This document shows positions 11,568 through 15,280 of a stretch of DNA of 64,000 nucleotides, piece by piece (position 1 is the stretch's first letter; every line of letters starts with the position of its first letter). The translations under genes were made by a program, and so were the position numbers. This DNA is from Defluviitaleaceae bacterium (GTDB lineage Bacteria > Bacillota > Clostridia > Lachnospirales > WQUN01). The DNA lies in contig WRLD01000011.1 of NCBI GenBank assembly GCA_009777845.1, forward strand, positions 1-64,000, written 5' to 3'. The notes below the pieces were generated by a model that was given only the letters and a program-made list of their open reading frames with translations, made no database searches and was not told where the DNA came from.

Positions 11568-11610
11568 TGAACGCGGATTTACGCGGATTTACGCGGATTT
11601 CGCGGATTCT
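11568..11610. repeat. REP-B tract
   Basis: Three or four direct units of GCGGATTTAC type in a row. Same family as 6289-6380 and the other REP-B tracts, here without the inverted arm. Confidence 0.7.
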
Positions 11611-11629: not shown

Positions 11630-11658
11630 TTGAATTTTTAGGAAAACTATGTTAGAAT
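11630..11658 (+). promoter_or_regulatory. Near-consensus sigma-A promoter of the candidate structured RNA
   Basis: TTGAAT (11630-11635), a 17-base spacer with an extended TGt, and TAGAAT (11653-11658). No ribosome site or sense ORF of 60 or more codons follows for 600 bases, so the transcript is expected to be non-coding. Confidence 0.65.
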
Positions 11659-11664
11659 ATATTA

Positions 11665-12175
11665 GCAATAAAATAGCGTAGCGACCGAGCGGTGTTTGCA
11701 CCACCACTCGGCGAGTGTAGGGATTTCTACGCATCACCTAACACACACAGGCTTTCGCCCGCCACTACGTAGGCATAGTTTAGCATTGTTTTACCACTAT
11801 TACAAGATTCTGCCTTTGGCGTTTTTGGAATAGTGCGGTGCTATTTGTGTTATTTACGTTACAGCCCACGGCAAGGCGTGTTTGATTTCCTTTCGACTTC
11901 CAAGGTGTGTAGGTGGTGGCAATGCTTTTGCCGTCCTTGCACACCTTTTTGTATCACCAAAGTACCACGCCCAAGCACAGGAGTACCCCCTAGCGGAAAT
12001 AAATGACCGCTAGGGGGTGTGCGAGGGCGACTATAGAAAGTCAATCGAAGATTGACTTTCTGCAATATGCTTTGCATATTGCTACCCACCTCCCTCCGCG
12101 TTGCTTCGGTCGGTATGTGGGCGTTCGTGCAACTTAAAATTTGCAAGCGCGCTTGCAAATTTAAGTTGACTCACT
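11665..12175 (+). ncRNA. Candidate large structured non-coding RNA, about 0.35-0.5 kb
   Basis: Helices seen by eye: GCGTAG/CTACGC (11676-81/11727-32) enclosing CCGAG...CTCGG; TAACACA/TGTGTTA (11739-45/11846-52) enclosing AGCA...ACC...CACTATT against AATAGTG...GGT...TGCT; GGCGTG/CACGCC around an AAGGTGTG/CACACCTT hairpin with an inner GGCAA/TTGCC; ACCCCCTAGCGG/CCGCTAGGGGGT (12 bp, 11985-12019); GAAAGTCAATC/GATTGACTTTC (12036-12060); GCAATATGC/GCATATTGC; CCCAC/GTGGG; and a long CTTAA(A)ATTTGCAAGC palindrome (12132-12165). It has its own promoter and the plus strand carries no plausible CDS. It is not tmRNA, RNase P, SRP or 6S RNA by their conserved cores. The 3' end is not clear; the last hairpins may be separate elements. 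Confidence 0.5.
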
Positions 12176-12262
12176 ATAGCTCCAAATCATAAATCTAATA
12201 ATACCGTAAATCCACGCACGAAAAATCGCCAAAGGCGATTAAAAAAAAGAGGAGGGAACACA

Positions 12263-13627
12263 ATGAGTAAACTTAGGAGCAAAACCACAAGAAACAGCAC
12301 AAGGAAAAGTGCAAAGAAGCGCACAACAAAACGCACAACAAAACGCACAGCAAAAAGCACAACAACAAGCCGAACAAAACGCAAAACAAAGCTAACAACA
12401 AAGCTAATCAACTTTATCAAGGCGGACAAGGTGACAACTTGCTTAATTGCGGTGGTCTTGTTCTTGTTTATAGCCCCCTATGTCTTTCCTGCCGACACGG
12501 AAGGCGACATGGCAGTCGCAGTAGTAACACTAGAAGAACGTGTCGAATACGCACTAGACCGTTACCACGAAACTATTGAAGCCGAAAGCGGAGCAGGTAT
12601 TAGCCCGAGCAATTGGTGGGCCAAACCACAAATCCGCAAGGATTTACATGATTCGATAGAAGCGGCGCAGGCGTTGCTGGACAGATATTACAATCCGCCA
12701 ACGCATAACCTCACCATAGGTCGAATAGCGGGCATTACGAGCAATGGCACAGTCACTGTAAACGGCTCTGTTCTTGCCCCTAATGTGCCTATGGCTATTG
12801 AAGCAGGAGCGAGTGTACAGATTATCGCCGCGCCAAATAGCGGACATCGCTTCGTGAGGTGGACTGTCGTCAGCGGCGGTCTTGAAATTCCGTCGCCTAC
12901 AATTTCCAACAGAACCTTTGTCATGCCCGACAATGACGTGGAAATAACGGCGGAATTTGCAGTGCAAACATACTATGTCACTGTATCCACCTCGGGTACA
13001 GGGTACGGCACAGCTACAGCAAACCCAACAAGCGCAACAGCAGGGACAACCATATCACTTAACGCTTCCCCAAACGCCACCACACGCTTTGTAAGGTGGG
13101 AAGTGCTAAACGGCAACGTAACTATCAGCAACCCCACAGGGCGAATTACTAGCTTTGTTATGCCGAGTAGAGATGTAATGGTTAGGGCTGTATTTGAGCA
13201 TGTACAACAGCGGAAAACAGGCTCTAGGGTAGTCAATTTTACAGGCTCAATGGGAATGAACCTTGCGGCGAGGGCTACAGGCTGGTCGAATATATTGTCG
13301 TTTAACGTAACCAACGTACGTTCAGATGCAAAGGTTACAAGTATTTCTGTAGACCCGGGGCGTTCAACATCTGCAAATCCTCCTGCGGGTACTATTGTGC
13401 CAGACTTCCTACGTGTAACGAGCTCGTCACTGCCCGATAGACAATTAGATATGGAATGGCGTGGCGTGGTAAACACCATATTAAACAATTCGTCCTTTTT
13501 CACAGGCGGAGATGTAAATGCCCTATGGACAGTTAGGTGGTATGGGACAAATACGTCATCCCTCAACTCGGGTACTAGGAGCTTTAACAATGTAAGCCTT
13601 ACAATCAATTATGAATACTTTGAGTAG
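12263..13627 (+). CDS. Basic-tailed single-pass surface protein with InlB-type repeat domains
   Basis: 454 aa. The first about 50 residues are Lys/Arg/Thr-rich repeats (KKRTTKRTTKRTAKSTTT), a histone-H1-like cytoplasmic tail. One membrane helix follows at about 58-75 (TTCLIAVVLFLFIAPYVF). Outside are a short helical domain, two Flg_new_2/InlB B-repeat-like modules (about 148-232 and 235-312; each has T-x-x-S/A-x-N-A, RFVRW and a closing FVMP-x-x-D-V-x-x-x-A-x-F), and a C-terminal beta-rich domain of about 140 residues with no family I know. Ribosome site GAGGAGGG. Probably a surface adhesin or structural protein with a nucleic-acid- or wall-binding tail; role unknown. Between it and the candidate RNA are about 85 bases with a short hairpin. 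Confidence 0.65.
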   Translation: MSKLRSKTTRNSTRKSAKKRTTKRTTKRTAKSTTTSRTKRKTKLTTKLINFIKADKVTTCLIAVVLFLFIAPYVFPADTEGDMAVAVVTLEERVEYALDRYHETIEAESGAGISPSNWWAKPQIRKDLHDSIEAAQALLDRYYNPPTHNLTIGRIAGITSNGTVTVNGSVLAPNVPMAIEAGASVQIIAAPNSGHRFVRWTVVSGGLEIPSPTISNRTFVMPDNDVEITAEFAVQTYYVTVSTSGTGYGTATANPTSATAGTTISLNASPNATTRFVRWEVLNGNVTISNPTGRITSFVMPSRDVMVRAVFEHVQQRKTGSRVVNFTGSMGMNLAARATGWSNILSFNVTNVRSDAKVTSISVDPGRSTSANPPAGTIVPDFLRVTSSSLPDRQLDMEWRGVVNTILNNSSFFTGGDVNALWTVRWYGTNTSSLNSGTRSFNNVSLTINYEYFE

Positions 13628-13707
13628 GCTACATTTAGGTTAATAAAAGGCAACGCCATGCCGATAAACAATATAAGTAGAAAATTTCCCTAGACGGAGT
13701 GATTTTT

Positions 13708-14472
13708 ATGGTTGTAAATAAGACAGCAATGTCTGTTGACTTGAGCCAATTTGTTAATCGTACACGGTATAACGTAAAATTGCCTAGCTTTATGCTATCG
13801 AAAAGCGAACCCCTAATGAGCGACGAGGAGTATAAAGAAAAGGCTATAGAAATGGCAAGGCAACATGCACGAGAGGGACGGACTTACAGCCATGATAGGG
13901 ACAGTGATTTTAATGTTTTACGCAATAGCTATACGTCCGTTGTTTCGCCAGACCGTCAAGGGATAATAAACAAGGCTATGCCTAAGGTTATGAGCGATTT
14001 AAAGAAGAAAGCGGCAGAATCCGACATGTTTCAAAGGTTTATGGAGATTCTCTTTAAACTTGAAACAAACCGTACCCCACATATGGGGGCGGAGCAAGTC
14101 TTGGAAATGCCGCACATGCCCGAAAGCATGGGGCAAGCGCTCCATATAGCAGAATTTAAAGATGAGTTTGGCAACAGAATTGCAACACTCGCAACAGACG
14201 GGTGGGCAATGATTCCAACTGATGCCGAAATCGCAAGAGGTAAGGAGTTACAGATAATATATAATGATGCGTGGCGTGCCGCAAAATCCGAGTATGCGTT
14301 GGAACGAAGCCTTGAAGCCGATTCTAGCGGTGGTTTAAGTTGGCTAATGCCAAATAAGCCCATGCCTAACATCACAAAAACGGACATATCCACCATACAG
14401 CCACAGCAAGGGCAGACCACTAAAACCGTAGCCAACCTCTACGAAGCAAACCTGCACGAAGCAAAGCAATAA
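13708..14472 (+). CDS. Unknown 254-aa protein, tandem copy A
   Basis: Cytoplasmic-looking protein with no signal peptide. It opens MVVNKTAMSVDLSQFVNRTRYNVKLP, then a helical charged region (SDEEYKEKAIEMARQHAREGR), a NRTPHMGAEQVLEMPHMPESMGQAL stretch, a short beta segment (EFGNRIATLATDGWAMIPTDAE), a C-terminal helix and a Gln/Thr-rich tail. I do not recognise the family. ATG 13708 is used because GGAG lies 8 bases before it; the GTG 9 bases earlier overlaps the ribosome site. The neighbouring copy B is an 808-bp tandem duplicate. Conserved positions between the two (whole N-terminal 50 residues, the PDRQGIINKAMPKVM block, the tail) mark what is under constraint. Confidence 0.6.
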   Translation: MVVNKTAMSVDLSQFVNRTRYNVKLPSFMLSKSEPLMSDEEYKEKAIEMARQHAREGRTYSHDRDSDFNVLRNSYTSVVSPDRQGIINKAMPKVMSDLKKKAAESDMFQRFMEILFKLETNRTPHMGAEQVLEMPHMPESMGQALHIAEFKDEFGNRIATLATDGWAMIPTDAEIARGKELQIIYNDAWRAAKSEYALERSLEADSSGGLSWLMPNKPMPNITKTDISTIQPQQGQTTKTVANLYEANLHEAKQ

Positions 14473-14515
14473 AGCACAAGATAAGCAGAGGATTTCCCTA
14501 GACGGAGTGATTTTT

Positions 14516-15280
14516 ATGGTCGTAAATAAGGCTGGAATGTCTGTTGACTTGAGCCAATTTGTTAATCGTACACGCTATAACGTAAAATTGCCTAGCTTTA
14601 TGCTATCGAAAAGCGAACCCCTAATGAGCGACGAGGAGTATAAAGAAAAGGCTATAGAAATGGCAAGGCAACATGCACGCGAGGGACGGATTTACAGCCC
14701 AGATATAGACAGTGACTTTAACACACTACGCAGTAGTTATATATCTGTTGCCTCGCCAGACCGTCAAGGGATAATAAACAAGGCTATGCCTAAGGTTATG
14801 AGCGATTTAAAAAAGAAAGCGGAAGAATCCGACATGTTTCAAAGGTTTATGGAGATTCTCTTTAAACTTGAAACAAACCGTACCCCACATATGGGGGCGG
14901 AGCAAGTCTTGGAAATGCCGCACACGCCCGAAAATATGGGGCAGGCACTCCATATAGCAGACTTTAAAGACGGTCAAGGTAATGTTATTGCACAACTAAC
15001 AACAAATGGGTGGATAGCGTTCCCGACTGATGCCGAAACCGCAAGAAGAAAAGAGTTACAGGCAATATATAATGATGCGTGGCGTGCCGCAAAATCCGAG
15101 TATGCGTTGGAGCGAAGCCTTGAAGCCGATTTTAGCGGTGGTTTAAGTTGGCTAATGCCAAATAAGCCCATGCCTAACATCACAAAAACGGACATATCTG
15201 CTATACAGCCACAGCAAGGGCAATCTACTAAAACCATAGCCAACCTTTACGAAGCAAATCTGCACGAAGCAAATCAATAA
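14516..15280 (+). CDS. Unknown 254-aa protein, tandem copy B
   Basis: Same length as copy A and about 85-90% identical by eye, including the 5' leader with the same ribosome site. Differences cluster in the middle: NTLRSSYISVASP for NVLRNSYTSVVSP, and DGQGNVIAQLTTNGWIAFPTDAETARRKEL for the matching part of copy A. All other blocks are kept and the frame is intact, so both copies seem to be expressed proteins. Role unknown. Confidence 0.6.
   Translation: MVVNKAGMSVDLSQFVNRTRYNVKLPSFMLSKSEPLMSDEEYKEKAIEMARQHAREGRIYSPDIDSDFNTLRSSYISVASPDRQGIINKAMPKVMSDLKKKAEESDMFQRFMEILFKLETNRTPHMGAEQVLEMPHTPENMGQALHIADFKDGQGNVIAQLTTNGWIAFPTDAETARRKELQAIYNDAWRAAKSEYALERSLEADFSGGLSWLMPNKPMPNITKTDISAIQPQQGQSTKTIANLYEANLHEANQ

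Follow-up and report, generated by a model that had tools for sequence, protein, structure and literature searches.

What RNA, if any, follows the promoter-like motif near position 11630 of the window, the stretch of 64,000 nucleotides analysed here on contig C11 of a 2.98-Mb genome in 67 contigs? The earlier note had read the 0.5 kb behind this motif as one candidate large structured RNA with a promoter of its own. The promoter was confirmed, with a TG preceding its second hexamer, and downstream of the motif lies a gene presumed to be controlled:

11630-11658, plus strand: sense promoter, -35 TTGAAT (11630-11635), spacing of 17 nt, -10 TAGAAT (11653-11658), TG-extended
12263-13627, plus strand: presumed controlled gene, 454 aa, divergent InlB B-repeat surface-type protein

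The absence of a sense ORF was also confirmed, no plus-strand ORF of at least 60 aa being present between 11484 and 12263. A 99-aa ORF on the minus strand (11859-12158) overlaps the RNA and the repeats described below and looks like a mechanical by-product. Folding was strong over 11660-12180 (MFE -205 versus -152 ± 6.4 for shuffled sequences, z -8.35), and the core 11664-11957 by itself gave a z value of -4.21 against shuffles.

The idea of a single 0.5-kb RNA did not hold. In a search of the whole genome with the stretch, its first 300-350 bases recurred at C3 (94% identity, downstream gene included), C13 (80%), C25 (73%) and C23, while the piece at about 12086-12176 recurred alone at C8, C1 and C10 as a dispersed repeat. 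Because the search splits the stretch in this manner, the RNA proper is taken to begin near 11664 and to end with the U-tract at 11946-11950, and in alignments of the copies the unit common to unrelated copies stops at this U-tract, around 11950. The two helices proposed as closing large domains (TAACACA/TGTGTTA and GGCGTG/CACGCC) have an equivalent pairing in just 7 of 122 copies each; TAACACA really belongs to the H5/P3 pairings described below. A conserved structured RNA that is new and has a promoter of its own was correctly recognized, and the main helices assigned to it, together with the 3′ half, were not part of it. A large stand-alone RNA of the OLE, GOLLD, ROOL or raiA class was not supported either: the window matched none of the Rfam covariance models of these and other large RNAs, and the element is a leader of about 290 nt, placed before genes and ended by an intrinsic terminator.

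Several neighbouring elements were observed around the RNA. Short tandem units, TTTACGCGGA, occupy 11572-11605 directly upstream of the sense promoter. On the 3′ side, most copies carry a hairpin of different sequence at the position of the following element:

11985-12018, plus strand: second hairpin 3′ of the terminator

Positions 12036-12082 consist of simple inverted repeats, and the dispersed repeat at 12086-12176 (about 91 bp, two inverted repeats; 93% identity at C8 and C1, 85% at C10) is unrelated to the RNA family. The hairpin AATCGCCAAAGGCGATT at 12206-12260, just 5′ of the Shine-Dalgarno sequence, resembles some 30 genomic sites at 77-93% identity and is possibly another shared leader element. 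Two nearly identical ORFs of 257 aa lie in tandem at 13699-14472 and 14507-15280.

We then considered how widely the RNA occurs. The genome of the window contains at least nine copies, and BLASTN found others in 14 further genomes belonging to the same family, whose records carry the name Defluviitaleaceae. Thirty-four sequences of the 5′ domain were combined into a covariance model (R1), which matched 23 of the 38 genomes of this family, with 1 to about 60 copies per carrier genome (the highest number, up to 60 matches, in G018), and gave no match in the other genomes sampled from the order. An exact pattern occurs at 39 places in GTDB contigs, every one in records named Defluviitaleaceae, which the isolate names suggest to be termite-gut MAGs. 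Wider models (R2 and R3) also reached divergent members: 10 further families of the class contain them, as do one other of the order and four elsewhere in the phylum, so that the RNA family extends over about 16 families of one phylum; the weakest distant members have E-values near 1e-3. The Rfam scan proposed by the earlier note gave no match for the window, and release 15 matched none of the copies tried, divergent ones included. No similar plasmid or phage DNA was found for the RNA family, and the papers searched included none on a Defluviitaleaceae riboswitch or on DUF6809. In four genomes (G015, G018, G003 and G110) many copies are found no more than a few hundred bases from a contig end, the position at which recent near-identical duplicates that break the assembly would be expected. 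Single copies were seen close to a skipping-rope RNA (L250, 2547-2630), a Na+ riboswitch (L191, 1750-1809) and a CRISPR array (L273, 1855-2016).

The 5′ part of the leader folds into a closed domain:

11677-11769, no strand assigned: closed 5′ domain, P0 (11677-11683 with 11763-11769), enclosing P1, H5 and PG; region of sense-antisense overlap, with covariation and wobble asymmetry
11685-11711, no strand assigned: P1 hairpin with hypervariable apical loop; 10 of 10 pairs changed on both sides
11715-11744, no strand assigned: H5 hairpin, arm a (11715-11724), hypervariable loop (11725-11732), arm b (11733-11744); covariation
11748-11761, no strand assigned: PG hairpin of the CAGGC/GCCUG type, whose loop is not hypervariable; covariation

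The earlier note had also called for relatives and compensatory changes; both were found. In an alignment made from sequence only (plain MAFFT, A5), 17 of 37 pairs were changed on both sides as compared with 7.8 ± 1.4 in shuffles, and pairing was possible in 90.5% of the cells against at most 49% in slid controls. Model-fitted alignments agreed with A5 on the structure of the 5′ domain. PX, a helix closing the 5′ and 3′ ends, is strong in other families and was not supported in the family of the window. In L258, L262, L264 and other members from these other families, the 3′ strand of PX can pair instead with the Shine-Dalgarno sequence (CCCUCC/GGAGGG), which hints at an additional switch there, acting on translation.

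The same alignments bear on the view that the copies are dispersed repeats or mobile elements of DNA, with hairpins that merely reflect inverted repeats. The copies at contig ends, the recent near-identical duplicates and the unrelated downstream genes would all agree with it; nevertheless, the alignments show no constant ends, the compensatory changes in P0, P1, H5, PG and the terminator hairpin H3 across many families contradict it, and the wobble bias reported below is strand-specific. Moreover, the 91-bp element at 12086-12176 is precisely such a repeat and is separate from the RNA. We give this explanation hardly any credence.

The leader ends in a hairpin, H3, whose arms resemble those of H5:

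11902-11950, plus strand: H3 intrinsic terminator, hairpin 11902-11947 and U-tract 11946-11950
11732-11918, plus strand: P3, one antiterminator half, arm b region (11732-11746) with 11905-11918; coevolution
11715-11942, plus strand: P2, the other antiterminator half, arm a (11715-11724) with 11933-11942; coevolution

At least five T in seven nucleotides follow the hairpin in 91 of the 97 H3 detected. The 5′ and 3′ arms of H3 resemble arms a and b of H5, respectively; therefore, the four arms can exchange partners, arm a pairing with the 3′ arm of H3 (P2) and arm b with its 5′ arm (P3). Among 89 distinct copies, H5, H3, P2 and P3 each paired better within a copy than when arms were swapped between copies (0 of 1000 permutations), and swaps restricted to the genus also gave 0 of 1000 for each, while the control pairings a:c and b:d were no better within a copy than swapped. 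With 31 copies of other families, the values were 0 of 5000 for H5, H3 and P3 and 32 of 5000 for P2. Coordinated changes across all four arms were seen in G024, G018 and G015, the first of these having GAAGG for GUAGG. H5 with H3 and P2 with P3 are thus two coevolving yet mutually exclusive folds, an attenuator switch, and the leader contains the exclusive terminator and antiterminator that characterize a countertranscript-driven attenuator.

A same-strand ORF with a Shine-Dalgarno sequence begins within 500 nt of the terminator in 93 of 111 assessable copies (84%; median distance 93 nt), as compared with 59 of 118 on the divergent side. In the family of the window these genes have a variety of products: stalk/Cu-amine-oxidase-N, NPCBM, LRR, RCC1 and InlB-repeat proteins, flagellin, AbrB/MazE-like and XRE regulators, zinc ribbons and lipoproteins. 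In other families the genes encode DUF6809, Spo0E-like and SymE-like proteins and a response regulator with GGDEF, and the leader continues into a hairpin containing the Shine-Dalgarno sequence. N-terminal signal-like segments, scored by a crude heuristic, were enriched downstream (42/93 versus 87/316, p=0.002). These positions weigh against a stand-alone, trans-acting small RNA of about 290 nt, ended by its terminator and only incidentally followed by genes. Such an RNA would have the promoter and terminator observed, no fixed downstream gene, and copies lacking a convincing one (18 of 111); but the nearby same-strand gene in most copies and the extension of the leader into the Shine-Dalgarno hairpin speak against it, and a coevolving antiterminator pairing would have no obvious purpose in a terminated small RNA. 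We consider it very unlikely.

A long conserved block of the leader, AGUUUAGCAUUG..UUUCAAU, is weakly supported as a helix, and its opposite strand reads as a sigma-70 promoter with 17-nt spacing. The candidate helices P5 and P6 were rejected, since P5 pairs in only 69% and 47% of the cells in two alignments and a promoter is the better reading of the motif. On the minus strand we thus distinguish:

11777-11805, minus strand: antisense promoter, -35 TTGTAA (11805-11800), 17 nt, -10 TAAACT (11782-11777), TG-extended
11667-11676, minus strand: A-rich 5′ segment, whose opposite strand is the U-tract ending the predicted antisense RNA; adjoins P0′ in the antisense fold
11665-11771, minus strand: predicted antisense RNA (countertranscript) of about 105 nt, exactly complementary to the P0-closed domain and followed by the U-tract; probable ends

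The promoter motif of the RNA family is TTGAAA-17-TATAAT (mostly TTGNAA-17-TATAAT in other families), found at the same place, with a spacing of 17 in 116 of 123 copies of the family of the window and 44 of 45 others. At least 9 of 12 consensus positions were matched in 72% of 130 copies of this family and in all 45 copies from other families, frequencies that are not fully independent among model-found copies because the -10 and -35 elements lie within the 3′ part of the covariance models. Copies found by BLAST, and the different and better TATAAT sequence of other families, are less affected by this dependence. Controls at the same threshold gave 11-13% for shuffled sequences and 22% and 9% for the sense strand. 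The sense promoter is visible in aligned copies, often as TTTGCAC..TGnTAnAAT; by strict consensus (at least 9 of 12) it is only modestly above chance in the family of the window (37% versus 17% shuffled), and in other families it reaches 86% versus 20%.

Since the antisense transcript would start inside the 3′ strand of P0 and end in the complement of the A-rich segment (A fraction 0.58 over copies versus 0.31 upstream), it would mirror the P0 domain. The minus strand of the window folds as P0′ enclosing PG′, H5′ and P1′, followed by the U-tract, with an MFE of -49.3 (z -4.27), the same region of the plus strand being weaker (-35.5). The strongest test for a putative antisense RNA came from the non-Watson-Crick pairs that survive in the helices. 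An A-C mismatch on the sense strand is a G-U pair on the antisense strand. In P0 the ratio of A-C to G-U was 32:1 (A5), 91:8 (A7) and 59:0 (A9), while the ratio of G-U to A-C was 128:11 in the terminator H3 and 180:43 in P2; P3 showed no clear bias (44:34). From these opposite biases it follows that P0 is maintained as a helix of the antisense strand and H3 as a helix of the sense strand. Judged from the sequence, the leader thus harbours an antisense promoter, and the predicted antisense RNA covers the antiterminator arms.

An antisense RNA overlapping a 5′ UTR could also act as in type I toxin-antitoxin systems of the SymE/SymR kind, by blocking translation or triggering decay rather than by attenuation, and some members (L261, L284) do precede SymE-family genes. 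However, such genes are a minority and that of the window encodes an InlB-repeat protein, about 490 nt separate its start codon from the predicted antisense RNA upstream, and the conserved terminator/antiterminator pairs point to transcription. This alternative seems to us most improbable.

To compare the loops of P1 and H5, we took 21 disjoint pairs of near-identical copies, whose identity in the rest of the domain averaged 94%. Loop identity was 0.55 for H5 (p=2e-4) and 0.63 for P1 (p=1e-3), as compared with 0.88 for PG and 0.83 for the next 100 nt of flanking sequence; because short global alignments inflate such values, the H5 and P1 loops are close to random. Among 560 within-genome pairs, the H5 loop was shared by 3, both loops by 1 and the PG loop by 145; the sole pair with both loops alike (L058/L059) has its first 80 nt identical and lies at two contig ends. 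In the genome of the window, the leader and the InlB-repeat gene are duplicated (11630-13627 and C3:112548-114677); the leaders are 94% identical, and their H5 loops differ (TTCTACGC and TTACGCTC). No cis partner for the hypervariable loops was found (one of 56 tests gave p 0.002, which was not repeated in another set), a result that fits with antisense action and equally with absence of constraint. The YUNR motif was not consistently enriched in the loops.

These loops also bear on a riboswitch, in which the four-way 5′ junction would bind a small molecule or ion, the ligand would select H5/H3 (off) or P2/P3 (on), and the minus-strand promoter would be coincidental. Coevolving exclusive folds in a leader that precedes surface proteins, flagellin and small regulators are what such a device would show. 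Against this, both apical loops are randomized, the junction lacks an invariant unpaired core, the unpaired block with the strongest conservation is the antisense promoter, P0 evolves as a helix of the antisense strand, and the gene content is heterogeneous; neither the window nor the divergent copies matched a known riboswitch class in Rfam. A riboswitch is in our opinion unlikely. Binding of c-di-GMP, an idea derived from the gene content, is disfavoured, as carriers of genus g16 (G024, G033 and G035) lack a match to GGDEF proteins. In the family of the window, c-di-GMP-I riboswitches occurred only in three genomes devoid of the new RNA and in none of the 23 carriers, the numbers being small.

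Sequence comparison has established the elements, the two coevolving exclusive folds, an antisense promoter, a wobble bias that differs by strand and loops that are hypervariable; together these argue for a chromosomal, multi-copy, self-insulated, countertranscript-driven transcription attenuator, and we hold this to be the probable function of the family. Transcription of both RNAs, the direction of control and recognition between loops are what we infer, as follows. The sense promoter would produce the leader of about 290 nt up to H3, before the gene. In the leader by itself, the 5′ domain would pair its arms a and b with both arms of H3 (P2 and P3), no terminator would form, and RNA polymerase would read into the gene. 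The opposite-strand promoter inside the leader would yield the antisense RNA of about 105 nt, complementary to the P0-closed domain, which would recognize the leader during its synthesis by way of the P1 and H5 loops. Its pairing with the 5′ domain would occupy arms a and b, so that H3 would form and transcription would stop. With loops randomized between copies, each antisense RNA may act on its own leader alone, and unique loops would block cross-talk among copies as do plasmid incompatibility determinants. More tentatively, and somewhat short of probable, some bacteria may carry dozens of orthogonal antisense switches on one RNA scaffold, with recognition loops actively diversified by a diversifying mechanism or by strong selection against cross-talk, so that each surface protein or regulator gene would have a private on/off RNA address.

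Plasmid copy control is the best-known setting of countertranscript-driven attenuation. If the proposed attenuator is real, bacteria would use this principle as a general, self-insulating regulatory scaffold on the chromosome, in about 16 families and with up to about 60 copies per genome. The unique loops lead to testable predictions (loop swaps), the RNA family would offer natural sets of orthogonal RNA switches, and strand-specific wobble bias could reveal antisense RNAs using genomes alone.

Among known systems, the Termite-flg and Termite-leu motifs (PMC2864571) are likewise RNA motifs of the termite gut, and their models matched none of the copies tried. Riboswitch and T-box attenuators share a leader with terminator versus antiterminator, whereas the new RNA has hypervariable loops, an antisense promoter and no Rfam match. 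As in SymR/symE, a type I system, the antisense RNA is opposite to the 5′ UTR, and a few members precede SymE-family genes; unlike in that system, the overlap is a long way 5′ of the start codon, most targets are genes other than SymE, and an attenuator is present. The closest parallels are pT181 and pIP501, in which transcription attenuation is driven by countertranscripts (PMC5703833), although no Rfam model of plasmid countertranscript RNAs matched the copies tried. In pIP501, the antisense RNAIII induces a terminator-like structure in the repR leader (PMC5703833); that system is a plasmid one, whereas the new RNA is not on a plasmid and not homologous by sequence. The pT181 RNAI/repC leader is likewise known, partly from PMC5703833, to combine an opposite-strand antisense RNA with antiterminator and terminator folds that exclude each other, but it serves one plasmid rep gene per replicon, while the new RNA is chromosomal and precedes many unrelated genes in dozens of copies.
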